Positions 7,722 to 25,555 of a DNA stretch of 49,599 bases are shown here, one piece after another (the first letter of the stretch is position 1; every line of letters begins with the position of its first letter). The DNA lies in NCBI GenBank assembly GCA_013202495.1, contig JABMQQ010000181.1, forward strand, positions 1 to 49,599. Direction: 5' to 3'. The notes under the pieces were generated by a model that was given only the letters and a program-made list of their open reading frames with translations, was not told the DNA's origin and made no database searches. Made by a program: the position numbers and the translations under genes. The DNA is from Fidelibacterota bacterium. Lineage in GTDB: Bacteria; Fidelibacterota; UBA8477; JABMPR01.

Positions 7722-8486
7722 ATGAAAACCATTAGCCCTCACATTTTTACGGCCCTGCTCCTCATGCTCCCCATGATGATATTTGCCGAAACCGGTTATG
7801 AGTTGGCGAAGGCCATGGAAGACAAAACTGCACCCTCAGATATGAAATCGAATATGACCATGACTTTAACCAATAAGCAGGGTAAAACCAGAGAATCTAC
7901 TATTCGCTCCATCACAGCTGATGACAATCGGAAACAAATCATCTGGTTTCTGGCCCCAGCCGATGACAAGGGCGTTGCCTTCCTAAAAATTGAACATGAG
8001 CAAAAAGATGATGAAATGCGTCTCTGGCTGCCAGCGTTTAAAAAGGTCCGACGTATCAGCTCTAAGAAAAAGGCCGATTCCTTTATGGGCTCTGATCTGA
8101 GTTATGAAGATATGACTTCAAGAGAATTGGAAGAATATACCTATGAAATCCTAGGTGAAAAAGTCGTCGATGGAATTGATTGCCATATTCTGGAAAGCAC
8201 TCCCAAAGCGGGTGTTACGCGCACATATAAAAGATTTGTCACTTATGTAAGTAAGGCGGATTTGGTTTCCATTCTGGATGAAGCCTATGATACTCGAGAT
8301 AAACTGCTAAAACGTCGTGTAATGAAATATCGTAAGGATAAAGGCTATGACCTCCCTACTGAGATTTATGTAGAGAATGTCCAGAAAGGTTCCAATACAC
8401 GCCTTGTATTTAGTAGCCAGGAAGTAGATACCGGTGTAAAGGCAGATCTCTTTCAAGAAAAGAATTTAAAACGGATGCCCAAATAA
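7722..8486 (+). CDS. LolA-like periplasmic outer-membrane lipoprotein-sorting protein
   Basis: The 254-residue protein has a signal peptide (about residues 1-22, ending MIFAE). The mature part matches the 'outer membrane lipoprotein-sorting protein' family, a LolA-like half-barrel. Its hallmark block is present: RLWLPAFKKVRRI followed by DSFMGSDLSYEDM (about residues 104-137). SD GAAGGA precedes ATG 7722. In other bacteria this family is regularly encoded next to MMPL permeases and a DUF1302-type barrel, as here. The likely job is to carry a lipid or lipoprotein across the periplasm between permease and outer membrane. That step is inference from fold and context. It is not the housekeeping LolA, which has a different sequence signature. 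Confidence 0.82.
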   Translation: MKTISPHIFTALLLMLPMMIFAETGYELAKAMEDKTAPSDMKSNMTMTLTNKQGKTRESTIRSITADDNRKQIIWFLAPADDKGVAFLKIEHEQKDDEMRLWLPAFKKVRRISSKKKADSFMGSDLSYEDMTSRELEEYTYEILGEKVVDGIDCHILESTPKAGVTRTYKRFVTYVSKADLVSILDEAYDTRDKLLKRRVMKYRKDKGYDLPTEIYVENVQKGSNTRLVFSSQEVDTGVKADLFQEKNLKRMPK

Positions 8487-8525
8487 CTATGCCTCCTTTT
8501 ATTGAAGGACTCTAAGGACCCTGCT

Positions 8526-9851
8526 ATGAAAAAACTGTATCCTATTTTAATAATATTGGGACTTATACCCCTTTCCACCCTTGCTCAGCTCAATATTTCG
8601 GGAGAATTAACTCCCTCTGCTATGCTTCGTTTGAGTGATGGCACTAATATTGACTTACCCTTCCGACCAGGGAATCTTTCCATCGATTATGCCATGGGGG
8701 ATTTCGAATTCAATACCAATACGGCTATCGAAACACGCTGGGAAAATGCTGAATTCTCCTCGGATATGTTCCAATTCAGAGAGGCTTATCTCACCTGGTA
8801 CCCCAGTTTTGGCGAGATCAAACTGGGGAAAATGATTCACGCCTGGGGTGCAGCTGATGGCAACAATCCAACGGACAATCTTTCACCCTATGATTTTTAC
8901 TATATGTTTCTCGCAGGAACCGATAGAAAGATTGGGACCCTCAGTGCCAGCGGGTTAGTGTATGCCGGTGACTTCCAGTTCGAATTGGTAATTCTACCTG
9001 AATTTGTTGAAAATCGTATTCCTTACAATGAACCTGACTTTCCCATTAAAATAGAACTGCCACCAGATGTTGAGATCACAGAGCCTAAAGAGGCTATTGA
9101 AACAGGTGCAAAGGTCAAATATGCCATGGGTATGGGTGATGTTTCCCTATCCCATTTTCAGGGGTATGATCGTTCTATGAGTTCGATAGGAGTTCGAATA
9201 GGTGAGGGAACAGCAGGCACAGCGATTACCATTCATCCACAGCTTGGATACCGTAAAACAAGTATGTATGGTGCAGATTTAGTATTCTTTCCCGGAAATT
9301 GGACAATTCGAGGTGAATTCGCTTACTTCCAGACCAAAACACCCGAGTTCAACCTAGATGCCACCCTCCTGGTCACCGAAGCGAGCTATCTCCAGTCTGT
9401 CGTGCAGCTTGAATATGCTTTTTCAAATGGTTTACAGCTCATGGGGCAGTTTATAAGCACTGATTACGGTGATATTAGCAATGAAATCACACCGGATCTA
9501 ATCTTGGCAACGCTCCCCGATGAGCTCCAACATGGCTTGCTCCAGCAAATGAACAGCATGGAATTCCAAGCGGGAATGGGAACGCCTTTCGCCATGATAG
9601 CTGAAAGATTAGTTATGGTATCCTCAATGTTCGAAACTTTGGACAACACCCTGGAACTTAGTGGCATGCTTATGGTCAACCTCCTCGAAACCGGCTACAT
9701 GGCTAGAATAGGATCCAGCTATTCCATAGTTGAAGGTTTAAGTCTGGATGCTGGAGTGAGTTACTTCATTGGAGGCGATGAAGCGGGCAATAAATTCAAG
9801 AATATGGAAGATTTTTCAAATCTTAACCTTGGACTCAGCTATAGTTTTTAG
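8526..9851 (+). CDS. Outer-membrane beta-barrel protein of the permease cluster (DUF1302-like)
   Basis: The ATG at 8526 has an AAGGA SD 7 nt upstream and gives a clean signal peptide (MKKLYPILIILGLIPLSTLA), so I prefer it to the upstream TTG at 8502. The mature protein of about 420 residues is rich in alternating aromatic/polar strands and ends ...LGLSYSF, a C-terminal Phe typical of outer-membrane barrels. A block FREAYLTWYP followed by LGKMIHAWGAADG and D-N-L-S-P-Y-D resembles the conserved core of DUF1302 outer-membrane proteins, which commonly sit beside RND permeases and LolA-like proteins. At 441 residues it is shorter than most DUF1302 members, so the family link is tentative. It probably forms the outer-membrane end of the cluster's transport path. 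Confidence 0.7.
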   Translation: MKKLYPILIILGLIPLSTLAQLNISGELTPSAMLRLSDGTNIDLPFRPGNLSIDYAMGDFEFNTNTAIETRWENAEFSSDMFQFREAYLTWYPSFGEIKLGKMIHAWGAADGNNPTDNLSPYDFYYMFLAGTDRKIGTLSASGLVYAGDFQFELVILPEFVENRIPYNEPDFPIKIELPPDVEITEPKEAIETGAKVKYAMGMGDVSLSHFQGYDRSMSSIGVRIGEGTAGTAITIHPQLGYRKTSMYGADLVFFPGNWTIRGEFAYFQTKTPEFNLDATLLVTEASYLQSVVQLEYAFSNGLQLMGQFISTDYGDISNEITPDLILATLPDELQHGLLQQMNSMEFQAGMGTPFAMIAERLVMVSSMFETLDNTLELSGMLMVNLLETGYMARIGSSYSIVEGLSLDAGVSYFIGGDEAGNKFKNMEDFSNLNLGLSYSF

Positions 9852-10799: not shown

Positions 10800-10976
10800 T
10801 TACGGTAATTTTACCACAGAAGATTCCCATGTGGTCTTCTGGGTTTGGGAGTTGCCTCCCTTGACAACTGTTGGTACAAAATTTACCAACAACATGAATG
10901 TCAGCAGCACCAGCAAAGTCAAAATGACTTGAACTGAGGCATTTTTTCTCTGTCTTTCCCCACGAAATGATTTCAT
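10800..10976 (-). CDS. Small single-TM protein (58 residues) coupled to the TatT-like lipoprotein
   Basis: Reading from the ATG at 10976 gives 58 codons and TAA at 10800. The N-terminus is basic (MKSFRGERQRKNA), one hydrophobic helix spans about residues 15-37 (VQVILTLLVLLTFMLLVNF), and a polar tail of about 20 residues follows. This predicts an inner-membrane protein with the tail outside. Its ATG overlaps the stop of the upstream lipoprotein gene (ATGA at 10973-10976), the same coupling seen in other gene pairs of this window. That overlap and the clean membrane protein are the reasons to call it a gene. The function is unknown. It is too small to be a TRAP DctQ subunit. Confidence 0.6.
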   Translation of the reverse strand: MKSFRGERQRKNASVQVILTLLVLLTFMLLVNFVPTVVKGGNSQTQKTTWESSVVKLP

Positions 10977-11827
10977 AGATTAAACCAGTTTTCCTTTTCT
11001 GCTTTGATCATCAATCTTTCAGCCAGAGCCTTTTCATAGACATTTTCAGGATAATATGACAGGTCTGGGTTCGGTGTTGTAGTTACTACCTTTGTTAAAA
11101 GGCTATAAAAGAGATCTTTATCCTGGGCCAGAGGACAGTAATGTTGAGCCATAAGCGTATAGTTACCCAAATAGTCGGGCGAAATCCGGATCGCTTCATC
11201 AAAGGCTTCACGTATCCCAGTTGTATCGTTCTCTGTTTCTGGATCACGTCCCAATAAAGCACCTTTATATCGGTAGTAAGCACCATTGTAAAAGGTCGAA
11301 TCCAGATCATGAATATGCTCCAGCGTGGTCCAGATAAGCTCCCGTTGTCCCATGCGAATGAGACTACTTTTTGTGGCTAGCCATTGTCCATAATTGGCCA
11401 TTCCCCAATAAAGTGCTTCCAGCGAATTCTTGTCAAGACCACGAACAGCCATACTCTCATCTCCAGTTGAAAACAGCAGATTGCGGTACTCGCTGTTTTG
11501 CTTGAGGACAGTTTGACTGACGCCATAGCCCAGAAGGAATAGACTATCCTGCACCTGTGGAGATTCGGTTAAATATTGGCCGCAAAAATAATAAGCCCTT
11601 GAAAGTTTCGCCCAGAGTTGAATAGACGTTGAATCCGATTCTGAAAGCTGTTGAAAAACTTCCAGAGCGGCTTGCGCGTTTGCCCTATCAGCCCGCAACG
11701 ACCAGAGGCTATCGGCATTTTCAATATTGATTTCTACTGGATCTGGTGAATCAGGCGTGACAGTTATATCAGTTGAAGTGCAAGAGATTAGAATTGCGGA
11801 TAAAAAAATAAAAACAAATTGTCGCAA
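10973..11827 (-). CDS. TatT-like TPR lipoprotein (TRAP-transporter-associated T component)
   Basis: I prefer the TTG start at 11827, which gives a lipoprotein signal peptide (MRQFVFIFLSAILISC) with GGGGAAGG upstream. The ATG at 11899 would add 24 non-signal-like residues. The mature protein is helical. Its second half follows the TatT family pattern: LEALYWGMANYGQWLA, then FYNGAYYRYKGALLGRDP, then LFYSLLTKVV, and a C-terminal KALAERLMIKAEK helix. In Treponema TatT is a trimeric TPR lipoprotein that docks the TRAP substrate-binding protein TatP. No DctP/TatP or DctQM gene occurs in this window, so it is an orphan here. It is followed by the coupled 58-residue protein. It could instead be a generic TPR lipoprotein. 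Confidence 0.65.
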   Translation of the reverse strand: MRQFVFIFLSAILISCTSTDITVTPDSPDPVEINIENADSLWSLRADRANAQAALEVFQQLSESDSTSIQLWAKLSRAYYFCGQYLTESPQVQDSLFLLGYGVSQTVLKQNSEYRNLLFSTGDESMAVRGLDKNSLEALYWGMANYGQWLATKSSLIRMGQRELIWTTLEHIHDLDSTFYNGAYYRYKGALLGRDPETENDTTGIREAFDEAIRISPDYLGNYTLMAQHYCPLAQDKDLFYSLLTKVVTTTPNPDLSYYPENVYEKALAERLMIKAEKENWFNL

Positions 11828-11985
11828 AGCGTCAGAGCCTTCCCCATTCGAGTTATCCCCCCTCCTGAAAATCGGCCAAATATAGCTTGCATGACTCAAC
11901 TATTACAAATGCTGTTTAAGCCAATATCATTTTTTGTTTCAGAGTTATCGAAAATGAAAAGACGAGGTGTTAAACGATGTTTTGC

Positions 11986-14235
11986 CTACTGTTCAAGTAT
12001 CAGTTCGACGAGAATAACCAGGTCCCTTACATCAATTAAGCTATCCTGATTGGTGTCAGCCAGTTCTGCCAGGTCGGCAGCTAGCTCAAGGTTTGATATG
12101 ATTGATTCCAGAAGAAAGACCGCATCAGATACGTTGATTTCGCCGTCCTGAGTAACATCACCCAGGATGAAGCCGGAACCCCATCCTAATACAGCAAAGT
12201 TGTCAACTTGAAATCCATCACCCTCAAAATATGTATCGCTTATCAATTCAAAGGCCAGCATCAGAGAAGATGACTCGCTGAAATTGACTAGCGAGAGTTG
12301 TTCTGCTATCCATACTTGCGTCCCATGATACCCAGGTTCTCCAAGTGGCTGAACCGAACTACCATTTCCAATATCCGTATACTGACCACCCAGGGCAACC
12401 CAGTTTGCACCACCATCATCTGAGGCCAGTACCTGACAAAAGTCCCAGTTGAACTCGATATCCCAACTGGCGTCAAATCGAAGGATTGGATTGCTATACC
12501 CGCGTATATCTAGAGGTGTGTTCAGCACAACTGTGGAAACCGAACTTGGTTCGTAGTAACCAGCAGGAGAATCTGTCATATACTGCTCGCCATCGGGTCC
12601 TGTATCCAGTCCCCAGGTCCCAGAACTCCACATTTGAGTTCCAGCCTCAAAATCGTCAAAAAATATGGTGTCAGGAATACCAACTATCCACTGGAGTGTA
12701 TCCACTTGCGTTTCATATCCGGACATTTCTATGCTCAGTACAAGCTGAGCCACTTCACCATATCGAGAATTAATCTCAAAGCTTAAATCTCCGGTTCCGT
12801 AATCATGAAAATCCTGTGATGCCAGACCTGAGACATCAATTGAACTAAGTGATGGGGTAATGCTACTGTCTGGCGAGTATAAATAAAGGGTGGCAGCTGT
12901 GTTCTCCGAACCTAGCCCCTTGTTCATGACGATAAGCTCACACCCCAACATATCACCAGATTCCAGAGGACCATCTGAGTTAAACTCAAAGTTTTCTACT
13001 TCTATCCAACTCCCCGCACAACCGGCAAGATGAATATTCATATCGATATTGTCCTCAGCCATTTCAAATATCAATTCCGTAGGTGGCCAAAATGCTCCGT
13101 CTGATCCAGCGCCGACTTCTGGTGTGAAATTTATAATTCCCAATTCACCATACATGTAATCAACGGCATCCCCGTTCACCGTATAGCCTACGGTCTCGGT
13201 TCCAGTTCCATACAGATAATCATTTTCTCCCACAAGATCTGGACCCATTTGGGCATATATCTCGTTATCAGGCACGGGTAGCTCAACCGATTCATCATAA
13301 CCGAAGGGCTTTATGAGTAAATTGCCGTAGCTGTGATAGTTGAATATGGTCTTAAAATCATGGGCAAGCACAAAATTACTAACCACTTGTGTTTCTGGTT
13401 CAGAGAAGGGACCAGTTCCTCGGTATGTACCACCGCATGGGTCAGCGCTGGAGCCCTCATCATCAAAGCCCCAATGGAAACCCCAATTTCTATTCAGGTC
13501 GACACCTGGTGAACTGGTACATCCTGGATGTCGATTCTTGCGGTGCAGTCCTCCACCATTTGGATCAGTGAGTTGATTGTAGACATAACCATCTGGATTG
13601 ATTACAGGGACGAACCAAATTTCTCTCTCATTGACTAAATAGGTCATGGTTGGATTCTGGTTGTATCCCTCAGCAAGAGACCAGGCAAAATGCATCAATG
13701 TCATCATGGCAGCCGGCTCACGAGCATGGATGAGAGAATTGTAAAGGACCTGGGGATCACCGTCCGGTAAACCCTGAGCATCAGATATCTTAAAAGCCCA
13801 GATATCCCGTCCTTCATAGCTAAGCCCGATGCTGTGCTTAACGGAGACAATTTCCGGGTAACCCGCATGCAGCGAATCCATACTGGTCACAATCTCATCA
13901 AAAGTTAGATACCCCCCCATACTCCCGTAACCAAGTTCTCGTGACACACCCTGACTTAACCTTGATGCATAATAGGCACTCAGATCAAGGATCAAATCTT
14001 CTGAAGCAAATCCCAGACCTTCAACATTTAACTTTTCGGTCTGATTAACAATAGCATCGACATAAACACCAGGTCGGACATCGAACCCTTCTGGGTCTAG
14101 ACCCAATACCAGCAATTCAGTTATGATCTCATTGGTATCATCTGACCAGATTCTGATTTTATCGTATGTTGCTTGAGCCATCCCGATCTGGAATGAAAAA
14201 AGGAGGACAAGCAGAGAGGTAAATTTTTTATTCAT
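11986..14235 (-). CDS. Secreted M14 zinc carboxypeptidase with C-terminal dockerin
   Basis: The 749-residue protein has a signal peptide (about 1-20), a pro-region, then an M14 metallocarboxypeptidase domain (about 105-405). The zinc ligands are visible: His170 and Glu173 in IHAREP, and His301 in NYHSYG. The catalytic Glu373 lies in FTPEVGAG, and VDLNRNW is the usual substrate-binding Asn-Arg block. Beta-sandwich domains follow. The last 60 residues form a type I dockerin: two calcium loops, D-V-T-Q-D-G-E-I-N-V-S-D and D-T-N-Q-D-S-L-I-D-V-R-D, each followed by a helix. It lacks the T9SS sorting tail seen on other exported proteins here, so the dockerin probably anchors it to a cohesin partner. 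It lies 19 nt after the M1 peptidase gene, in one operon. Confidence 0.9.
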   Translation of the reverse strand: MNKKFTSLLVLLFSFQIGMAQATYDKIRIWSDDTNEIITELLVLGLDPEGFDVRPGVYVDAIVNQTEKLNVEGLGFASEDLILDLSAYYASRLSQGVSRELGYGSMGGYLTFDEIVTSMDSLHAGYPEIVSVKHSIGLSYEGRDIWAFKISDAQGLPDGDPQVLYNSLIHAREPAAMMTLMHFAWSLAEGYNQNPTMTYLVNEREIWFVPVINPDGYVYNQLTDPNGGGLHRKNRHPGCTSSPGVDLNRNWGFHWGFDDEGSSADPCGGTYRGTGPFSEPETQVVSNFVLAHDFKTIFNYHSYGNLLIKPFGYDESVELPVPDNEIYAQMGPDLVGENDYLYGTGTETVGYTVNGDAVDYMYGELGIINFTPEVGAGSDGAFWPPTELIFEMAEDNIDMNIHLAGCAGSWIEVENFEFNSDGPLESGDMLGCELIVMNKGLGSENTAATLYLYSPDSSITPSLSSIDVSGLASQDFHDYGTGDLSFEINSRYGEVAQLVLSIEMSGYETQVDTLQWIVGIPDTIFFDDFEAGTQMWSSGTWGLDTGPDGEQYMTDSPAGYYEPSSVSTVVLNTPLDIRGYSNPILRFDASWDIEFNWDFCQVLASDDGGANWVALGGQYTDIGNGSSVQPLGEPGYHGTQVWIAEQLSLVNFSESSSLMLAFELISDTYFEGDGFQVDNFAVLGWGSGFILGDVTQDGEINVSDAVFLLESIISNLELAADLAELADTNQDSLIDVRDLVILVELILEQ

Positions 14236-14254: not shown

Positions 14255-17182
14255 TTAATTAGAAATAGTAAATAGCCATTGATTCGAGTCGATTGCGTTG
14301 ACCCATTCAGAATTTTCATACTTTAAAATACTTAGCTCGAATTTCATGTGAAAGGGACGAAACAATGTCGAAATCCAATTTGTGCGTTTCCAGGATGGCT
14401 TATAGTCTAGTGCAAATCCTAAGTCTCCAACATTGCTCCAGTTTTGGGCATCATCAGATATTTGCCCGATATCGAAGAAAATCCCAAGGTCCAGGGCTTC
14501 AGGCATGTGGGGTATGGTTCTAAAAGTCAGGTCCAGGTTGTTGGACCAGATATAATTCATCGGCTGATCCAGGGAGTCAGAATACCCCCTCATACGTCCA
14601 CCACCCTTTAAATAATAATGGGAGCCAATCATTTCGGCATCTTCAATCCCATGAAAAGTACTTGCACCCCGGTCCAGGTAGACAGATCGTAAATCCTGAG
14701 ATGCCACGCGACTCTTGAGGAGGTCCGGGGTACTCTTTGAGTTTGCATGAAAATTTGAGCGATTTTTAAAGTGGAAATATGTAAATTTCTTATTCCAACC
14801 ACTCATGAGACTTACTTGGCTAAAATCCTCACCATAACTCCCAAAGCTTGCCGGAGAATTATGGTAACTCATACTAAATCCATAGTTTCCAGAAAACAAT
14901 ATCTCCTGCAATTCATATTTTAAACCAAGCCTTGTCAGTCCGATTTGGTCCGATGGAGCTACCCCTGCGTGTTTTGCATCAGTAGTTTCAATTTTCAGTG
15001 TTAAAAAGTGGAGTGGGTTCCTCCAGTATTTCTTCGCCCAATTTATTTCATAGGCCAATGAGCTAAAAACCATTGAGCGCCAGATTTTTGCTGTACCTGA
15101 CCAGGTGCCCTGGAAAGGAAGACCGACTTGAAGTTGCCGGAAGCTTAAAGAGACATCAGGGTTACCGGACTCCACATTATAATCAAGGGCCAACTGTGTA
15201 AAATTGCCCGTATTTCTATAGACTCTCTTAATGTTTACACCTAGACCTGGACCGGCAGAGTCGTTATAACCAAAAATTGGTTTCCAGAGATAAAGATTTC
15301 TATCATCGGGGTAGGCATCCCAGCCTTTATAATCATAACGAAAAGCGCGCTTGCGCTGACTATCATTGTTGCGTCGATCGACGTCAAAGAAGGTGTTTTC
15401 CGCATCAAGATAGACTCGAACCGGGCGAAAAGTGGATTCCACAACAATTGTACCGGTTGAGCGATGCCGAAATTCGTTTAGTGGAGCAGAGACAGTCTCA
15501 CCTTCCTTGCTGTAAATAGTTGCTGTGATGGGCACAAACATCCCGCCCATATTATCGACATTTATTTCTGTTGTAAAATGATCCTGATCATGGGTCTCCA
15601 CAGACCAATCGACCAATTTATAGTCCACAAAAGTGGTGGTGCGAAGCCATTGATCAAAGAACCAATCCAATTCTTCGCCGCATCCATCCTCCATGGCTTT
15701 GACGAATCGGTCTTCGTTTACATGCTTTAGTGCCCAGCGAGAGAAGTAAAGCCTCATCCCAGCCAGGAAGCGTTCTTCTCCTAGATAATTTTTCAGCATA
15801 GCCAGCATGATGGAGCCCTTATCATAGGAGTTACTGCTATAAGAACCATAATATGAATAATCGAAGCTCTGGGTTGCCATAGGCTCATTGGCTATAGACA
15901 GGATATATCTAATGGCCGGTTTTAGCTCTGCCTCTTCATACATCTCGCGATGTAAATGATCCGACTCAAATGCTGTGATATAATCGCGGGAAAGTTCATA
16001 TCCATTTTCTGGATAATAATGTTCCATGTACCAGCGAGTTTGAAATGTGGTAAATCCCTCGTCCAGCCATGGATCATCTAATTCATCATTTCCAAAAATT
16101 CCGTAGAACCAATTGTGACCCACTTCATGGACGGCCAATCCTTCACTATCCGTGTAATCCAGAACTATCATGGGGTATTCCATACCACCGGTTCCCAGGG
16201 ATTTTGCGAGAGTTATCTGTGGCCAGGTATACATTCCAAATTTTCCTGACAACCACTCCAGAGACCTCTCTCCCCATTTAACCATGTCTTTTGTCCAGGA
16301 TTCGCCAACTTTAGTAGTAAAAACGGCATGTACATCGATTCCATTCCAGTTCCCATGCTCATAAACAAAATCCTGTGAACATATCCACGCAAAATCATGT
16401 ACATTTTCTGCCAGAAAGCTTACTTGGCGTCGCTCCGTGCTATCCAGACCTGCCAGGTAAGTAGCTCTTTCCTCTTTAAATCCTTCAACCCAATCCTCCC
16501 ATGCTTGTGAGGTATCAACTCTCACAGAATCCCAGCCTGGGTCGCCATCTATGACGACTCCGGTTGCTGCGACTATTTGTGCAGTTGGAATATCCAGGTT
16601 GACGGTATATTTTCCAAACTCACCATAAAACTCTCCCCAATCCCCAAAAGGATCGTCGTGCCATCCATTCTCATCGTAAACCACAAATTTTGGATACCAT
16701 TGTGCAAAATCAAATTGGTTGTCTTCCCACCCAGCACGATCGATATGGGGATGGATAATTGATAACCAGTCCAGTCTGAATGCAAGTGTATCTCCTGGAA
16801 ACAGGAGCTGATGGAGTTCTATTTCTAAAATGGTATCATCTCGAATGAGAAAAGATAGATCTATTGAGTCGCAAACTGCCTTTTGAATAGTGATGCCCGT
16901 CCAGCCCTTTTCATCGACAAATGATTGACCATATCCACTCCATACTTGTTCCGCAATGGTACCCTCATTGAAAGCGTTGGGGTAGACATGCATGAGGATC
17001 TGATCGAGGGTATCTGGAGAATGATTCACATAGAGCAGTTCAGAAGTTGCTTCCAGTGTTTTCTCCTCTGAGTCAAAATATATATCCATATTGTACTCAA
17101 CATATTGCTGCCAATACTCACCTATGAGTGGCATGGTAAGTAGAGTAAATAACAGAATGAGCTGTATGGATTTGCGTCTCAT
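14255..17182 (-). CDS. M1-family aminopeptidase fused to a probable outer-membrane beta-barrel
   Basis: The 975-residue protein has a signal peptide (about 1-20) and an M1 peptidase domain to about residue 600. It shows the GGMEYP substrate motif and zinc site HEVGH (His352, Glu353, His356) with the third ligand Glu375 in LDEGF, so it should be active. From about residue 640 the sequence turns into alternating beta strands rich in Tyr, Phe and Gly, unlike the helical C-terminus of classic M1 enzymes. A GGGRMRGYSDSL segment at about 861-872 resembles the (V/I)RG(F/Y) signature of Omp85 barrels. The last residues (WLFTISN) lack a terminal Phe. I infer a self-anchored peptidase; whether the enzyme faces the periplasm or the outside is unclear. 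The first gene of the M1-M14 pair. Confidence 0.85.
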   Translation of the reverse strand: MRRKSIQLILLFTLLTMPLIGEYWQQYVEYNMDIYFDSEEKTLEATSELLYVNHSPDTLDQILMHVYPNAFNEGTIAEQVWSGYGQSFVDEKGWTGITIQKAVCDSIDLSFLIRDDTILEIELHQLLFPGDTLAFRLDWLSIIHPHIDRAGWEDNQFDFAQWYPKFVVYDENGWHDDPFGDWGEFYGEFGKYTVNLDIPTAQIVAATGVVIDGDPGWDSVRVDTSQAWEDWVEGFKEERATYLAGLDSTERRQVSFLAENVHDFAWICSQDFVYEHGNWNGIDVHAVFTTKVGESWTKDMVKWGERSLEWLSGKFGMYTWPQITLAKSLGTGGMEYPMIVLDYTDSEGLAVHEVGHNWFYGIFGNDELDDPWLDEGFTTFQTRWYMEHYYPENGYELSRDYITAFESDHLHREMYEEAELKPAIRYILSIANEPMATQSFDYSYYGSYSSNSYDKGSIMLAMLKNYLGEERFLAGMRLYFSRWALKHVNEDRFVKAMEDGCGEELDWFFDQWLRTTTFVDYKLVDWSVETHDQDHFTTEINVDNMGGMFVPITATIYSKEGETVSAPLNEFRHRSTGTIVVESTFRPVRVYLDAENTFFDVDRRNNDSQRKRAFRYDYKGWDAYPDDRNLYLWKPIFGYNDSAGPGLGVNIKRVYRNTGNFTQLALDYNVESGNPDVSLSFRQLQVGLPFQGTWSGTAKIWRSMVFSSLAYEINWAKKYWRNPLHFLTLKIETTDAKHAGVAPSDQIGLTRLGLKYELQEILFSGNYGFSMSYHNSPASFGSYGEDFSQVSLMSGWNKKFTYFHFKNRSNFHANSKSTPDLLKSRVASQDLRSVYLDRGASTFHGIEDAEMIGSHYYLKGGGRMRGYSDSLDQPMNYIWSNNLDLTFRTIPHMPEALDLGIFFDIGQISDDAQNWSNVGDLGFALDYKPSWKRTNWISTLFRPFHMKFELSILKYENSEWVNAIDSNQWLFTISN

Positions 17183-17322: not shown

Positions 17323-19092
17323 TTACTCAACTAATTTGATATGAAGTTCCTTGAGTTGCTGAGTATCCACCAGCGAGGGAGCTTCATCCATTAATGAAGA
17401 AGCTGAAGTCGTCTTGGGAAATGCGATGACATCACGGATATTCTCTGTACCAGCCAGCAGCATAATCAGGCGATCAAACCCAAAGGCAATCCCGCCATGT
17501 GGTGGTGCGCCATACTTGAAGGCTTTGAGGAGAAATCCAAATCTGGTTTGAGCTTCTTCTTCATCCATACCGATGAGCTCGAACATGCGGCTCTGCATTT
17601 CGCCGGTGTGAATCCTGATGGATCCTCCAGCTACTTCGTAGCCATTGATCACCAGATCATATGCTTGAGCTCTCACATCTCCAGGAGCTGTCTGCATTAA
17701 TTCAACATCTTCGGGATTCGGAGAGGTAAAGGGATGATGCATGGCGATATAGCGTTTGCTATCCTCGTCCCAGTCCAACAAGGGGAAATCCAGCACAAAG
17801 AGTGGTTTGACAACCCCATCTGGGATCAGATTTTCACGTTTAGCCAATTCAATTCGAAGTGCACCCAGCGACTGGAGTGTTCTGGCTTCAGTATCAGACA
17901 CAAAAAACAGGATATCATTGTGTTCCAGCTTAAGGTCATTGATCACTTCAAGCTGTAGTGCTTCGGGGAAAAATTTGCTGATGCCGGCACTGAACGCAGT
18001 TTGATCCATTTTTACAAAGGCCAGACCTTTTAAACCATAATAGGTCCGTAACCATTCGGTGAGACCGTCAGTGGCTTTCCGTGAATACTTATCAGCAGCA
18101 TTCTTCAAGACCAAAGCCTTGACCCGTCCGCCAGCTGCCAGATTGTCTTTGAATACACCGAATTCCGTTTTCTCAGCATAATTGGCGAACTCCACCAGAG
18201 GCAGATCAAAACGAATATCTGGCTTGTCACTTCCATACTTTTCCATGGCATCTTTATATTTCATGGTAGGAAATGTTTCAGGCAAATCGTAATCAAGAAT
18301 GTCCTTAAATATGCCACGAGCAAGACGGGTTGCTACGCCAAGAACATCATCTTGATCCACAAAGGACATTTCTATATCTATCTGGGTGAATTCTGGTTGA
18401 CGATCTGCTCGCAAATCTTCATCCCTGAAACACTTTACGATTTGAAAGTATTTATCAAATCCAGAAATCATGAGCAATTGTTTATAGGTTTGTGGAGATT
18501 GAGGAAGGGCGTAAAATTTGCCCTTGTGAATTCGACTCGGTACCAGGTAATCCCTGGCACCTTCAGGTGTGGATTTCATGAGAACTGGGGTTTCAAACTC
18601 CATAAAGCCTTCTGCATTTAATCTGCTGCGAGCGCTCTGATAGGCTTTGGATCTAATGGCCATCAAGTTCTGCAGCTCAGCAGTACGTAATTCCAGATAG
18701 CGATACTCAAGGCGGAGATCCTCACTGCCACTTTCCCGGTCTGAAACTAGAAATGGCAGGGGTTGTGCCTCGTTCAAAACTTCTAGTTCTGTTGCGACGA
18801 CCTCAATGCTGCCCGTGGGCATATTGGGATTCACATTTCCATCAGGACGGAGTTGGACAGTTCCGCGAACTGCAATCACATCTTCCATACCCAGTCGTTT
18901 GGCCTCAGCAGCAATATCTGCATCAAGATCTGGATTAAAGGTTACCTGTGTTTTGCCATATCGATCACGAAGATCCAGAAAAATAACACCACCATGATCT
19001 CTGTTTTTGGCTATCCATCCATTGAGGATGACTTCCTGGTTAACATTATCTACAGTTAAATCACCACAGGTCACGGTTCTTTTCAGACGCAT
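17323..19092 (-). CDS. aspS: Aspartyl-tRNA synthetase
   Basis: The 589-residue class II synthetase charges tRNA-Asp (or tRNA-Asp and tRNA-Asn if the enzyme is non-discriminating). The OB-fold anticodon-binding domain is at about 1-110. Class II motif 2 appears as FRDEDLRADRQPEFTQID, and motif 3 as GGIAFGFDRLIMLL near the C-terminus. The length and the insert between motifs 2 and 3 fit the bacterial type with a GAD domain. The start is ATG 19092. It lies 140 nt from the M1 peptidase start, so it is probably its own unit. Upstream lies a 350-nt stretch with strong secondary structure, annotated separately. Confidence 0.97.
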   Translation of the reverse strand: MRLKRTVTCGDLTVDNVNQEVILNGWIAKNRDHGGVIFLDLRDRYGKTQVTFNPDLDADIAAEAKRLGMEDVIAVRGTVQLRPDGNVNPNMPTGSIEVVATELEVLNEAQPLPFLVSDRESGSEDLRLEYRYLELRTAELQNLMAIRSKAYQSARSRLNAEGFMEFETPVLMKSTPEGARDYLVPSRIHKGKFYALPQSPQTYKQLLMISGFDKYFQIVKCFRDEDLRADRQPEFTQIDIEMSFVDQDDVLGVATRLARGIFKDILDYDLPETFPTMKYKDAMEKYGSDKPDIRFDLPLVEFANYAEKTEFGVFKDNLAAGGRVKALVLKNAADKYSRKATDGLTEWLRTYYGLKGLAFVKMDQTAFSAGISKFFPEALQLEVINDLKLEHNDILFFVSDTEARTLQSLGALRIELAKRENLIPDGVVKPLFVLDFPLLDWDEDSKRYIAMHHPFTSPNPEDVELMQTAPGDVRAQAYDLVINGYEVAGGSIRIHTGEMQSRMFELIGMDEEEAQTRFGFLLKAFKYGAPPHGGIAFGFDRLIMLLAGTENIRDVIAFPKTTSASSLMDEAPSLVDTQQLKELHIKLVE

Positions 19093-19448: not shown

Positions 19449-22400
19449 CTACTTCAAAAGTAACATTTTTACTGTCGAAGTATATTTTCCAGCTTGAATC
19501 CTGGCAAAATAGATGCCGGCAGGCAGCATGTCCCCTGATTCATTCCGACCATCCCATATATCAGTATACCTGGCTGGCTGGAGTGTTTCATGGCGGAGGG
19601 TTTTAATCTCCCGGCCCAGGACATCCAGAATAACGAGTTTAACCAAGCTGACCTGAGGCAAAGCAAATTCAATAGAAGTGCTGGGATTGAAGGGATTCGG
19701 AAAATTTTGCTCCAAACTGTAAGCTATGGGTCTCATTGGTCCGTCACCCAGGATGGCTACTGGTCCACACCCCACTGGGAAGGCACCAATATAGCTACCT
19801 GTTGTGGACATCCAGGCACATGGAGAATTCTCAGCCAGCGTGTGTTCCCAGCTCATTGGTTGACAAAATAGCGGGGGGTCAACAATATTTGAGTTGTCCC
19901 AGGAAATAACTGTTGTGCCATTTTGGGTTATGGCATCCAGACCACCTGGGATGCAACTAAAACTGATATCAATATTTGCTTGTGAGGAAGAGGCAGTCTC
20001 GATGATTGACCATTCCCCATCTAAGATTGAATTTTGGATTTCCACGTGGGAGATACCATCTACCCAAAGTTGGGATCCACCAGAATGAAGTGAGTTGAAC
20101 ACAACAGTGCACTGGTTCAGCCTGAGATACGAATCGATGACCACAATTCCACCACCATAGGGACTGGCTACATTCCATGAAATCGCACAACTATCCATTT
20201 CAATCGAAGAGCCATTGGTGATAGCGATGCCTCCTCCACCACCTTCTTCAGAATATGTAGCATTTCCAGTATTATCAAAAATCTGGAGATGTTGAAGTTT
20301 GCTACTTGAGTTGTGAAGATATATGCCACCACCGGAACTTCCACTTTCCAGGTTTGTTTGGGTGGTGTTCGAGATAATATTGCATTTTGATATCGTGGGG
20401 CTGGAATTGATACAGGCAATAGCCCCCCCATGATTGGCCTGGCTACTGCTGAAGGTAAACCCAATTAGTTGGGAAGTCTCAGTTTCTCCAGACTCATAAC
20501 GTATTCCGGAACCAATTGTAGCTCCAATAATAAATGTCAACGCTTCATAACCGTAGTCCGGATCCTGTATAACACGACTCCCCAGAACCATATCGACACC
20601 TGGCATAACTATATTCTCATGGTAAGCACCGACATCCACCATAACCGTATCTCCAGCAACCGCCTGATTGACCGCAAATTGAATGGTGGCATAGGGTTGT
20701 TCACTGGAACCTGTCCCAGTGCTATCATTTCCCGAGATTCGTGAGACATGCAACAAACGGTCGCCAATGGCCTCAATGATGTTAATCCCTCCACCACTGG
20801 CGTCAACATTACTGGCACCGTCATTGATCCTGAGTGAGCGGATCGAAACATCTTGATGACCCAGCTCAGCTTGCAGGGAAATGGAGCATTCCAAATAAAA
20901 TAAATCACCGCTCTCATAGATTAGTTGTGATCCAGCACTCGCTATATATACCCGATCTTCGCTCTGATTCGCTTCTATGAGCCAGTTGTTGTCATACAGA
21001 AGACCAGATCCTGATCTCAGCCCGTGAAAGAGGATATCTTCGTTGAACCCCCCGATACTTACCTCAATCGATGTGAGCCGGAATCCCTGAGTTAAAAATG
21101 CCTGAATGGGCAGTAAAAAAGATGAACCTGCCGGAATAGTTAACTGCGGTAAACCAACAGATAGGAAACCTTCCCCAAGAATATTTATGCCCCCAGACGA
21201 AAACGTCACTGGAGCCGCTTCATTGATATATACTATGGTAGGCACGATTGGTATAAATTGAGGATTCGCATCGCCTGCAACTGTAAACTCCAGCTCGAAA
21301 ATAATTTCATTTCCTGATATTTCCTCAGCTCCTGCTGCAGATATATAAAGGGTACTATCTATAATATTGCTTTCTATCTGCCAGCCATTTTCGCTGAGGG
21401 CTCCAGCAGTCAAGTCCACACCCGTAATCTCATAATCATCAGTAATTGCAGTAAATTGCATGTCAAGCGAGGACAGCGCTTCCTCCAGGGGTGTCTCAAT
21501 GTGGATGGGTAAGCCAATCGTATCACCAGGAAAAATTGAGACACTGTCAACCTTCAAAACGAAAATACTATCCGCTTCCGAAATCCAGGACCAAATGCCG
21601 ATACTGTTGTAGCCAAAATCTCCAACATACATGGTCCTACCATCTGGAGACCAATCTATTCCGCGGCCATTGAAGGTTCCTCCCGCCTGAGGTTCTCCAA
21701 GGGGAACACCAAATTCGCCAAGTTCTGCGCCAGTGACCGGATCATAGATATACCATCTAGATCCATGCTCTACATCGTTGGAGAACTCAATTTGAGTGTT
21801 GGCTGCATATAAATATCCATCTGGTCCCAGGGCAACATCCTCTGCCCAAAGTTCCTGAATATTTGTGGAGTCATCCTGAATAAACCAGCCTCCGATATTT
21901 CCAACCAATTCATGGGGGAAAATCCCAGGAAGGTCGCTATGATAATGTGATATGCCGTCTCCGACCCAGACAGTCCCACAATAAAGATCTTTCCCATCTG
22001 GAGAAACGGCTGCTCCCCTGGAAATATTGGGTCTGGAATCAATGGTAGTCCCTATTATCTCTAAATCACTGGTAAGCATGTAAACAGGGTAATTGCTTGT
22101 TACTCGGCCAACATAAACCCTACCAGTTTCATCCACAGCCGGTTTTCCAATTGAACCACCTTCTGGATACTCAAAAGCTGCCAACAATGCCCCAGTGCTG
22201 GAATTGATTTTGTAAAGGCTACTATTCATGGCATAGAGGATACTGCCATCTGGAGTGGTAGTTATCCCTCGACATCCAGCCACGAGTGGATAGGTACTAT
22301 CCCCCAGAAACAGCACAGATATAGGACTAAATTCAAGGTCTGCCCCGTCAGATGTTTGGATAAATATCTGAAAAATTTCCAGACTATCACCATTCTCATC

Positions 22401-22598
22401 AGGAATCATATCAGTTGGATATCCAAAGACGGAGTGCCATATATTTCCAGACCCGTCTACTGCCACCCCATGAATTCCATGAGAGTTATCAATTTCCAGG
22501 TCGTATTCTACAAAGAGTTCTTCAAATTGCCATTCGTCTCCAAGTAGGGGGCAGGTCCCTAGCAACAGGATTAACAATATACCGCGTAGACTAGTCAT
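19449..22598 (-). CDS. Large T9SS-exported surface protein: propeller, two cohesin-like domains, beta-helix
   Basis: The 1049-residue protein has a signal peptide (about 1-20, ending PLLGDE). Domains in order: a beta-propeller of NHL/SMP-30 style repeats (about 40-335, e.g. AVDGSGNIWH, SPDGRTMYVGDFG); two cohesin-like beta-sandwiches (about 341-440 and 476-580) sharing the motif LYISAAGAEEISG / VYIASAGS; a right-handed beta-helix of the pectate-lyase/DUF1565 type (about 614-905, with SGNDSTGTGSSEQPYATIQ at its start); and a FlgD-like type IX sorting domain (about 956-1049, NFPNPFNPSTSIEF). It is probably attached to or released from the cell surface. It follows the other cohesin-bearing gene by 8 nt and is co-transcribed with it. 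No catalytic residues could be assigned. The cohesin call rests on sequence pattern only. Confidence 0.85.
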   Translation of the reverse strand: MTSLRGILLILLLGTCPLLGDEWQFEELFVEYDLEIDNSHGIHGVAVDGSGNIWHSVFGYPTDMIPDENGDSLEIFQIFIQTSDGADLEFSPISVLFLGDSTYPLVAGCRGITTTPDGSILYAMNSSLYKINSSTGALLAAFEYPEGGSIGKPAVDETGRVYVGRVTSNYPVYMLTSDLEIIGTTIDSRPNISRGAAVSPDGKDLYCGTVWVGDGISHYHSDLPGIFPHELVGNIGGWFIQDDSTNIQELWAEDVALGPDGYLYAANTQIEFSNDVEHGSRWYIYDPVTGAELGEFGVPLGEPQAGGTFNGRGIDWSPDGRTMYVGDFGYNSIGIWSWISEADSIFVLKVDSVSIFPGDTIGLPIHIETPLEEALSSLDMQFTAITDDYEITGVDLTAGALSENGWQIESNIIDSTLYISAAGAEEISGNEIIFELEFTVAGDANPQFIPIVPTIVYINEAAPVTFSSGGINILGEGFLSVGLPQLTIPAGSSFLLPIQAFLTQGFRLTSIEVSIGGFNEDILFHGLRSGSGLLYDNNWLIEANQSEDRVYIASAGSQLIYESGDLFYLECSISLQAELGHQDVSIRSLRINDGASNVDASGGGINIIEAIGDRLLHVSRISGNDSTGTGSSEQPYATIQFAVNQAVAGDTVMVDVGAYHENIVMPGVDMVLGSRVIQDPDYGYEALTFIIGATIGSGIRYESGETETSQLIGFTFSSSQANHGGAIACINSSPTISKCNIISNTTQTNLESGSSGGGIYLHNSSSKLQHLQIFDNTGNATYSEEGGGGGIAITNGSSIEMDSCAISWNVASPYGGGIVVIDSYLRLNQCTVVFNSLHSGGSQLWVDGISHVEIQNSILDGEWSIIETASSSQANIDISFSCIPGGLDAITQNGTTVISWDNSNIVDPPLFCQPMSWEHTLAENSPCAWMSTTGSYIGAFPVGCGPVAILGDGPMRPIAYSLEQNFPNPFNPSTSIEFALPQVSLVKLVILDVLGREIKTLRHETLQPARYTDIWDGRNESGDMLPAGIYFARIQAGKYTSTVKMLLLK

Positions 22599-22606
22599 GA
22601 ATCGTC

Positions 22607-25555
22607 CTAGCGGATGTAAAGCATTTTAATAGCAAATGACTTATGGCCATTATCCACGATGCATAGGTACACCCCTGCTCCTATGTTCCTGGATTTCATC
22701 ATTTCAGGGGACCATTCGAACTGATGCCAGCCTGCTGCTCTCCAGTGGCGACTTTGTTGGTAAACCTGACGACCCGTAATATCAAATATGGCGATGCTCG
22801 TCCAGCCCGCTTCAACCAAACCAAATTTTATTTGAGTACTGGGGTTGAAGGGATTGGGATAGTTCTGCTTTAGCTCAAAACGATGGGGGAAAATAGCATC
22901 AGCACTTGAGGTGGTCCCAAATAGAATAGTCGTTGCAACATTTTCCGCGACATCTCCTTCATTGAGACGATATTTTGCCAGACTTATTTCAGCACCGTCC
23001 TCTATTGGACCATTTACAAAGCTAAAATTCAGAAGGAGAATTTCCTGATCAAAACTGATTGGAACCGTGGAGACCAGCACAACTCTGCTACCATTTTCAC
23101 TGGTACGCTCTTCCAGTGTGAAATGCTCCATGGCTTCCGGGAGTGTGACCTGGTCCAGATTTAGCTGTTCCAAATCATAGCCTAGTTCCAGCTCCATTGA
23201 AAACATATTTTCTACAGATTGTATGATGAGGGGCACCTGGTAATCGCTGTCTAAACCCAGGCTGGGTGAGTCAAAGTCGAGATTACCCGAGGCCAGTAGT
23301 GAAGCGGCTGAAGAATCGACAGGTAGTTCCTCGAGCAGATGGACCAGATATTGGAGAATAATTGAGGCATCTAGAGCAGAGAGACTGCCATCCAGACTTA
23401 CATCCCCATTGGCCGTCTGTTGATCAGTGAGGGTTATATAGCCCACCAGATGTTTCAGAATCAGAGCGGCATCATAAGCTGAAACATATCCAGACAAATT
23501 CACATCACCATATTCAACCGGCGGCCGAATATCCACACCACCATCCACAATATCTAATTCCATCCCATCCACATCAAATAGCGCATGAATAACTTCAATG
23601 GCGGAGAATCCAATATCTGCACCTTCTGGAATACTCAACAGCAGATCAAACAGAATCACCGAGCCAGAAATTTCATCGCTTCCAGCCGCTGCGATACTGA
23701 GTACTCCTACGCTGTCCAAAGCATATTCCAGGCTCCAGGCTCCAGTGGCTACTGGAATCACATCCATGAGTTCAAGGTTCTGGGTAAATCCACTCAGATC
23801 AAGTTCTAAAGAAGTAATAGACGAATCCGGGGGGAGCTCAATGCTGATAGAAAGCCCAATCTCCGTCCCTGGAATACTCTCGGTCGTTGCCACCCTCAAA
23901 GTGGCTGTAGTATCAATTTCAACGATGAGACCAAAATCATAATTCTGGAAATAGATCAGGTTAACATAGTCTTCGGGACCCCCTGGAGGATCAATGGATG
24001 GACGGGAATAATCAGGGATCTCATACATCAATTGGATCTGACCATTCTCCGCAATACGAGTCATATGGGGGAACACCTCATCCACCACACCATCGTTGGT
24101 CATGGTCACATTCTCAGGTTCCGACCAGGAACCACCTCCATCGAGGGAATAGCTGGCTAAAATATTCATATCGGCATAATCCTGACCCAGGTCATTGATT
24201 CCCAGGTGGGTTGTGCTAAAATAGGCGAGATAAAGCGCATCGGGGAAGACCACATCATAGGCTGCACTGAGAACATTGTCTTGCCACGAGGGAGCATCGT
24301 ATGACCACCCCATTTGCATTGATGCGACGAAAGAGATATCCATAATTACAGGACCTGCTTCACCCACAAATGCACTAGATGAACTTGAGAAGTGATAAAT
24401 TCCATTGGCTTCAGAATAATAGGGGTAGACGCCTGCCTCGGCTGAGGGAAGGACAGGTGCCCATACATGAAGTTGACCGTTTGGATCAGATAGAACCTCC
24501 ATATCATAACCGATGAAGGGTGCCCAGATCCCTGGCGAGCCTCCACCGGGATAAATCCATTGATCATTTTCTTCGATATAGACACTATCGGGCATAACAT
24601 CGTCGAAGTAGGCGTTCGAGGCTTCATCTGGAAGATGATACCATCCACTCCATGTGGCCCCATAATCATCTGTTTTTTTTATGAACAGGGTATGATTTTT
24701 TATCTGAACCGGATCAGCCCAATATGCACTGGTCACAAAGTATCCTGTTCCAGCTGCATTGATATCCATCTTGCCATTTGCTATGTAGTTGGCCTCATTT
24801 ACGCTGAGAAAATCTACGGGATTTAGAAGTAGATAGCTGTCAGAGTATTGCAGGGGTGTGCCAGACCAGGGACTGGTCTCAGTGGTCCAGAACAGGTACT
24901 TCGAGTTATTCAGGGACCAATCTGTAGCCATTGTGTTAAAAGTGATATCCCCAGTTTCGTTTTCAGTGACAACCGAATTGACCATCCAATTGTCATGGGC
25001 GAAGGGGTCATTATCCACATCGGACGGGATGCTCCAATCGCTCCCAGTATAGCCCCCGCTATTTACAGCATGATAGGCCCGTCCATCATAGTCGCCCCCA
25101 CCACCTCCGTATTCATTCCAGAAGACAATGGGATAGGTGCTGGTGGCTATTGCAGATGGATAACGTCCAATATCGGCAAGATTGATATTTGAATGAGTCA
25201 TCCATGATTCACCACCATCATTTGAGATTGATGCAGCGATTTGTCCTGAGCCCGCTCCTTCAACATATTGGCGATAGGCCATGACGATCTGATCCCGATT
25301 GAAGGGGTTGGCAGCAATTGTGTTTATTTCTGAAGCGATGAAACTGTAGCCATTTCGTGAGGAGTCCACTACCAAAGCATCTCCTTCCCTCAGACTGGTA
25401 AGGCGAGCTCCTATAGGTGGATCGATATTGACGAGCAGGTTTAATGGTTCAATTCTGTTGATTAATTCGGGTGAAACCACATCAGTTGTGGCAATTGGAC
25501 TAATAGCGAATAGAGAGCCTACCAAAAGCAAACAGATTATAGAATATCGAATCAA
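22607..25555 (-). CDS. Large T9SS-exported protein: sialidase-like propeller, cohesin-dockerin-cohesin
   Basis: The 982-residue protein starts at TTG 25555 (SD AAGGGGGA, 6 nt upstream), giving signal peptide MIRYSIICLLLVGSLFA. The N-terminal half (about 50-540) has Asp-box repeats of the sialidase/BNR propeller (SNDGGESW, TDDYGATW, SLDGGGSW). Then come a cohesin-like domain (about 550-675, with LSIAAAGSDEISG), a type I dockerin (about 681-745; calcium loops D-V-N-L-S-G-Y-V-S-A-Y-D and D-V-S-L-D-G-S-L-S-A-L-D), a second cohesin-like domain (about 755-880), and a type IX sorting tail (about 889-982, NYPNPFNPSTQIKF). Carrying both halves of a cohesin-dockerin pair, it could act as an adaptor scaffold. 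It is the first gene of the two-gene operon. Enzymatic activity is uncertain. Confidence 0.85.
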   Translation of the reverse strand: MIRYSIICLLLVGSLFAISPIATTDVVSPELINRIEPLNLLVNIDPPIGARLTSLREGDALVVDSSRNGYSFIASEINTIAANPFNRDQIVMAYRQYVEGAGSGQIAASISNDGGESWMTHSNINLADIGRYPSAIATSTYPIVFWNEYGGGGGDYDGRAYHAVNSGGYTGSDWSIPSDVDNDPFAHDNWMVNSVVTENETGDITFNTMATDWSLNNSKYLFWTTETSPWSGTPLQYSDSYLLLNPVDFLSVNEANYIANGKMDINAAGTGYFVTSAYWADPVQIKNHTLFIKKTDDYGATWSGWYHLPDEASNAYFDDVMPDSVYIEENDQWIYPGGGSPGIWAPFIGYDMEVLSDPNGQLHVWAPVLPSAEAGVYPYYSEANGIYHFSSSSSAFVGEAGPVIMDISFVASMQMGWSYDAPSWQDNVLSAAYDVVFPDALYLAYFSTTHLGINDLGQDYADMNILASYSLDGGGSWSEPENVTMTNDGVVDEVFPHMTRIAENGQIQLMYEIPDYSRPSIDPPGGPEDYVNLIYFQNYDFGLIVEIDTTATLRVATTESIPGTEIGLSISIELPPDSSITSLELDLSGFTQNLELMDVIPVATGAWSLEYALDSVGVLSIAAAGSDEISGSVILFDLLLSIPEGADIGFSAIEVIHALFDVDGMELDIVDGGVDIRPPVEYGDVNLSGYVSAYDAALILKHLVGYITLTDQQTANGDVSLDGSLSALDASIILQYLVHLLEELPVDSSAASLLASGNLDFDSPSLGLDSDYQVPLIIQSVENMFSMELELGYDLEQLNLDQVTLPEAMEHFTLEERTSENGSRVVLVSTVPISFDQEILLLNFSFVNGPIEDGAEISLAKYRLNEGDVAENVATTILFGTTSSADAIFPHRFELKQNYPNPFNPSTQIKFGLVEAGWTSIAIFDITGRQVYQQSRHWRAAGWHQFEWSPEMMKSRNIGAGVYLCIVDNGHKSFAIKMLYIR

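Follow-up and report, generated by a model that had tools for sequence, protein, structure and literature searches.

An M1 zinc peptidase joined to a predicted Omp85-type outer-membrane barrel in a Fidelibacterota bacterium

The window analyzed here, a stretch of 49,599 nucleotides from a Fidelibacterota bacterium, encodes at positions 14255–17182 of the minus strand a protein of 975 amino acids in which a complete M1 zinc peptidase (residues ~22–606) is joined to a predicted 16-strand Omp85-type β-barrel, an architecture supported by structural modeling. This is also the domain reading of the first-pass annotation, an intact M1 peptidase followed by an Omp85-like barrel, and structure prediction, fold search, profile–profile comparison and both motifs of the Omp85 lid lock agree with it. 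The open reading frame is real and complete, and relatives have orthologues that are equally long; its coordinates hold as first given and its strand is minus, the plus-strand frame of the same interval being full of stops. The best explanation, and one that has somewhat more than an even chance of being correct, is that the protein is an outer-membrane-tethered periplasmic M1 zinc aminopeptidase. The Omp85 barrel has been viewed as machinery that assembles or exports proteins, and the patatin-Omp85 protein PlpD opened the idea that it might also carry enzymes. Here, a widespread metallopeptidase fusion lacking POTRA domains keeps the lid-lock residues nearly invariant though the client-binding domain is absent, and for this reason the purpose of the lid lock (insertion activity versus barrel stability) becomes directly testable. 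Both Pfam and NCBIfam detect only the M1 half of the protein, so that its outer-membrane half is invisible to the two libraries.

The Peptidase Half

All features of the fusion gene are given with their minus-strand coordinates in the window. The N-terminal segment (residues ~1–21, MRRKSIQLILLFTLLTMPLIG, 17120–17182 (-)) reads as a signal peptide without a lipobox cysteine; in the orthologues the hydrophobic N-terminus is kept and its sequence is variable. The N-terminal and catalytic domains of the M1 peptidase follow at residues 22–512 (15647–17119 (-)), as assigned with Pfam and with phmmer against the PDB. The Pfam Peptidase_M1 model (PF01433) matches residues 345–512 with an E value of 5.4e-22 (score 78.9 bits, cut-off 27.7), the nearest solved proteins by sequence in the phmmer search are M1 aminopeptidases, and the NCBIfam models for M1 aminopeptidases match far under their cut-offs. 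The HEXXH(X18)E zinc site of peptidase family M1 is present, as motif position and homologue alignment indicate, in the form of HEVGH at residues 352–356 (16115–16129 (-)) and of the third zinc ligand Glu375, within WLDEG (16058–16060 (-)); the intact zinc site noticed in the first reading is thus where it was placed, with its ligands kept in 101 of 101 homologues. The catalytic Tyr453 of the YxKG motif (15824–15826 (-)) is found in the same 101 sequences. Since H352, E353, H356, E375, and Y453 are invariant across these homologues, barrel-bearing and barrel-less, the enzyme is very probably active. Where M1 enzymes have the exopeptidase motif GxMEN, the protein has GGMEY (residues 332–336; 16175–16189 (-)), of which GMEY (333–336) is present in all 101 homologues and Gly332 in 99. 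The amine-binding glutamate is kept, and the asparagine is a tyrosine in every homologue. We infer aminopeptidase activity, as well as the substrate proposed below, from these residues, and exopeptidase specificity is putative given GGMEY rather than GxMEN.

The peptidase ends in an Ig-like β-sandwich, the domain III of M1 enzymes (residues 516–606; 15365–15637 (-)), for which AlphaFold2 (AF2) predicts six strands and no helix. This domain sits where other Omp85 proteins have POTRA domains and joins the barrel directly, with only about 20 residues between it and barrel strand 1 in the model. No Pfam match to a POTRA domain was obtained in the window protein, and a POTRA domain at residues 516–606 was considered and rejected, the region being all-β and Ig-like in the AF2 model.

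The Barrel and Its Relationship to Omp85

The C-terminal part had been described as some 335 residues of predicted strands, and its last ~346 residues (629–974; 14261–15298 (-)) are now modeled as a 16-strand Omp85-type barrel, on the evidence of AF2, fold search and profile–profile comparison. The AF2 run covered residues 516–975 with 26 sequences (the window and related loci) and returned, with a pLDDT of 81 and a pTM of 0.76, the Ig-like sandwich followed by 16 barrel strands, which is the predicted strand number that the first-pass annotation had hoped to see. A run with the single full-length sequence reached a pLDDT of 31 and its model was not usable. In a fold search of the AF2 model against the PDB, 78 matches were found at E 0.001, and all of the 50 listed are Omp85 proteins (TamA, BamA, and Sam50). 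The TM-scores to the solved barrels are modest (0.36–0.44 by query and up to 0.55 by target) and the rmsd is 8–12 Å in most matches; therefore, the shape of the barrel is uncertain. The alternation of hydrophobicity between the inner and outer faces of the strands was equalled in 0 of 5000 shuffles with the family profile (p 0.009 with the single sequence).

Homology to Omp85 has been approached with a profile, named A2, built from the aligned barrels of 31 long family members (mean column identity 31%), which was compared with a profile of PF01103 barrels taken from the phylum's own genomes, with FadL and reversed profiles as controls. The A2 profile matches Omp85 with a probability of 96.8% and an E value of 2.4e-10 over 286 collinear columns. 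The controls gave no match, with E values of 0.84 for FadL and of 0.33 and 0.66 for the reversed profiles, and a FadL-type barrel has been rejected on the first of these values. Six columns of A2 are invariant, and four of them (G860, R865, F902, and G922) fall at or beside the signature positions of Omp85, which excludes a chance resemblance. The profile of the window genus alone matches Omp85 weakly (E 1.2e-3) and is linked to the remaining family members at E 1.2e-23, so that the link between this genus and Omp85 runs via the wider family. The search with Omp85 models proposed in the first-pass annotation has given a divided answer: the window protein alone lies below Pfam detection, and 2 of the 31 barrels reach the Pfam Omp85 model (best E 9.8e-7). 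An hmmsearch of the A2 profile against PDB sequences found no chain, and Omp85 is reached only through profile–profile and fold comparison.

Loop 6, Strand 13, and the Lid Lock

In Omp85 proteins, the (V/I)RG(Y/F) motif at the tip of loop 6 is bridged by its arginine to the aspartate of (F/G)xDxG on strand 13, and in TamA and BamA a glycine of strand 14 accommodates the phenylalanine of the latter motif (PMC4490367). The window protein has counterparts of all three elements. An extended loop 6 of 62 residues (815–876; 14555–14740 (-)) lies between strands 11 and 12 of the AF2 model and contains RMRGY (residues 863–867; 14582–14596 (-)), the lid half of the lock, placed by AF2 and alignment. 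The lock half is FFDIG (residues 902–906; 14465–14479 (-)), an FxDxG motif on strand 13 placed in the same way, and a DLG sequence (residues 920–922; 14417–14425 (-)) lies on strand 14. The likeness of RMRGY to the Omp85 lid motif had been recognized in the first reading, and its place in loop 6 and invariant arginine bear this out; on the other hand, the span then given, 864–867, is that of MRGY, and the FxDxG partner was overlooked. R865 is conserved in 37 of 37 close-clade homologues and is followed by G/A and Y/F/W, whereas the first letter of the motif, at the V/I position, is methionine in the window protein and leucine in most members. In the same clade D904 is conserved in 36 of 37 sequences and F902 in all 37, and in the long forms from Bacteroidota the lid-lock positions hold Arg or Lys in 12 of 12 cases and Asp in 12 of 12. 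G922 is present in every barrel-bearing homologue and is probably the counterpart of the strand-14 glycine of TamA and BamA. The strand-13 motif is thus, by its sequence, of the TamA/BamA type (FxDxG), as opposed to the GxDxG of the FhaC translocase.

The distance from the arginine to the aspartate is 38–39 residues in most members, versus 39–45 in the majority of the phylum's ordinary Omp85 proteins. An RGY arising by chance was rejected, the arginine being invariant and the loop and spacing canonical. An initial hhalign alignment matched the loop-6 motif of Omp85 to a site some 40 residues ahead of RMRGY; the AF2 strand order and this spacing speak instead for an insertion that precedes RGY in the family's loop 6. 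Loop 6 around RGY is modeled with a pLDDT of 42–64, so the R865–D904 salt bridge of the lid lock is putative. Both lid-lock residues have been lost in Roseithermus and in an uncultured relative (loci L073 and L099), where Arg is replaced by Val and Asp by Gly; the M1-barrel frames of this pair are much longer (1602 and 1273 aa, respectively, from stop to stop).

Distribution and Evolution

Relatives were found in 55 of the 100 genomes searched within the phylum, and an alignment query returned relatives in many genomes of the FCB group. The fusion is present in Neomarinimicrobiota, Gemmatimonadota, Krumholzibacteriota, Kryptonia, Rhodothermota, and Bacteroidota. In the long forms of the last phylum the barrel is homologous to A2 (E 3e-10). 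Other Bacteroidota, such as Dyadobacter and Tenacibaculum, have barrel-less M1 peptidases of about 620 aa that share the homologous M1 and Ig-like domains and the same catalytic residues; they stop at the Ig-like domain, where the barrel of the window protein starts, and have probably lost the barrel. A quick-method tree of the M1 domain, with 103 rows, groups all 47 of the sampled barrel-less ingroup rows into a single clade (98), which is nested with sequences that bear the barrel, from Rhodothermota, Kryptonia, and others. The outgroup branches are very long and therefore the root is not firmly placed. Since the sampled barrel-less homologues make a single nested clade, the simplest reading of the sequences is that the fusion is probably old and that the barrel was lost once, in the barrel-less clade. 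Another observation concerns the culturable bacterium Phaeodactylibacter xiamenensis, in which two M1-barrel genes are arranged in tandem (locus L088, 2993–5968 and 5962–9024).

Comparison with Other Omp85 Proteins

The closest known plan is that of PlpD of Pseudomonas aeruginosa, a patatin-Omp85 protein that, like the window protein, consists of a signal peptide, an N-terminal hydrolase and a C-terminal 16-strand Omp85 barrel. PlpD is a patatin lipase whereas the window protein is an M1 zinc peptidase, and in the latter, unlike in PlpD, the enzyme is connected to the barrel without an intervening POTRA domain. Type Vd (patatin-Omp85) proteins combine patatin, POTRA and barrel; in the window protein an M1 domain and no POTRA domain were found. 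Thus, the analogy with patatin-Omp85 drawn in the first-pass annotation stands for the order of enzyme and barrel, but the POTRA domain is absent and the export of PlpD has itself been revised. TamA and BamA share with the window protein the 16-strand barrel, (V/I)RG(Y/F) in loop 6, FxDxG on strand 13 and the strand-14 glycine; they have POTRA domains where it has the peptidase, and they lack the long insertion before RGY. Ten Omp85 subfamilies have been listed, none of them described with an M1 peptidase (Heinz and Lithgow, 2014; PMC4104836). Among them, the ‘Metallo’ subfamily is likewise an enzyme domain on an Omp85 barrel and one of the non-POTRA architectures, with a domain (PF00149) that is called a metalloprotease in that paper (PMC4104836). 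The window protein differs from it in carrying, instead of PF00149, a true M1 metallopeptidase (PF01433). We take PF00149 to be the calcineurin-like metallophosphoesterase family of Pfam. In WD40-Omp85 proteins, too, the Omp85 barrel bears an N-terminal domain other than POTRA, although this domain is a β-propeller and no enzyme. Searches for an M1 peptidase or aminopeptidase together with Omp85, Bac_surface_Ag or a 16-stranded barrel returned nothing relevant in the literature covered, subscription papers lying outside it. Enzyme-Omp85 fusions as such are already known, and what appears to be new here is a fusion with a different enzyme and no POTRA domain.

Topology and Possible Function

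The even number of strands (16) brings both ends of the barrel to one side, and the peptidase, coming before strand 1, lies across the barrel from loop 6. In solved Omp85 proteins this loop points outward, and the peptidase is therefore expected in the periplasm, which we consider its most likely location on the basis of the model. In the preferred mechanism, the signal peptide would take the precursor into the periplasm and BAM would insert the C-terminal barrel into the outer membrane. With the barrel in place, the M1 and Ig-like domains would stay on its periplasmic side, attached at its N-terminal end in place of POTRA. Held at the outer membrane in this way, the M1 domain would trim N-terminal residues of proteins or peptides there, and the secreted M14 carboxypeptidase of the adjacent gene would probably work beside it. 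The barrel would serve mainly as an anchor or gate and not as an active insertase. This agrees with the ‘self-anchored’ half of the description first given, which fits the predicted 16-strand outer-membrane barrel.

The other half, ‘self-exporting’, fares differently. It would require the barrel to bring its own M1 domain out to the cell surface, the in-cis mode of type V secretion that was initially suggested for patatin-Omp85, and is supported by the shared plan of an enzyme N-terminal to an Omp85 barrel. Surface and secreted peptidases are common in this bacterial group, which also speaks for it. However, the peptidase lies opposite to loop 6, the strand-13 motif is the FxDxG of TamA and BamA and not the GxDxG of the FhaC translocase, and the stretch between the Ig-like domain and strand 1 is short (~20 residues). 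A folded enzyme of about 65 kDa, moreover, would be unable to traverse a 16-strand pore. For PlpD itself, the initial report of secretion was revised when the patatin domain proved to be periplasmic (PMC11116518). Self-export is thus improbable. Even less probable, to the point of being nearly dismissed, is an ordinary periplasmic M1 peptidase anchored by a generic β-barrel unrelated to Omp85; the failure of the fusion protein's own sequence to reach Pfam Omp85, and of the A2 profile to find a PDB chain, would fit it, but profile–profile comparison, fold search and the presence of both signature motifs in their canonical topological places argue against it.

Alternatively, the barrel could be an active insertase whose M1 domain processes or clears clients, in a role in outer-membrane quality control or assembly like that of BepA with BAM. 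Speaking for this role, the two motifs of the lid lock and the glycine of strand 14 are under strong constraint, Arg and Asp have been lost together in the Roseithermus-type pair, and most of the Omp85 proteins studied act on other proteins (PMC11116518). Against this, there is no POTRA domain for client binding, the M1 enzymes characterized so far are exopeptidases, a large Bacteroidota clade has apparently dropped the barrel and yet kept the peptidase, and the genome already encodes BamA-like, TamA-like, WD40-type and N-terminus-less Omp85 proteins. We regard this role as rather unlikely, if less so than self-export. A broader proposal is that M1-Omp85 proteins constitute a subfamily of their own, the eleventh of Omp85, and that it is ancestral to the FCB group. 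The peptidase would here take the place of POTRA and, functionally coupled to a barrel that works as an insertase, would process the N-termini of outer-membrane or surface proteins, or clear such proteins, at the mouth of the barrel; this is a speculative and, on balance, doubtful extension.

Genomic Context

The tethered peptidase thus favored is encoded between two genes that are kept beside it in most genomes of the genus, in the order aspS, fusion gene, M14 gene. Upstream is aspartyl-tRNA synthetase (aspS, named from sequence; 17323–19092 (-)), a neighbor kept throughout the genus; 19 bp downstream is the M14 zinc carboxypeptidase (11986–14235 (-); Pfam PF00246, 1.1e-61), whose C-terminus has a MAM-like match and a weak dockerin match. 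An M14 gene also directly follows the fusion in two genomes from another family of the same taxonomic order (~50% identity). The M14 gene is adjoined by a match to the TRAP transporter T-component (TAtT, PF16811) at 10973–11899 (-). At two other loci (L017 and L018) no M14 gene stands beside the fusion gene, and there a TAtT (PF16811) gene is found directly beside the M1 gene. Two large secreted proteins are encoded further upstream, one with a weak cohesin match (19449–22598 (-)) and one with a clear dockerin domain (22607–25555 (-)), both with weak matches to Por/T9SS-like C-terminal tails. The region 19449–25555 may hold a non-cellulosomal cohesin–dockerin set, possibly including the M14 enzyme. 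On the plus strand, 7722–9851 (+) encodes a LolA-like outer-membrane lipoprotein-sorting protein and then a β-barrel-like protein. Finally, the WD40-type protein of the same genome (L118, contig 97) has a WD40/PD40 β-propeller on its Omp85 barrel and represents a second non-POTRA architecture.
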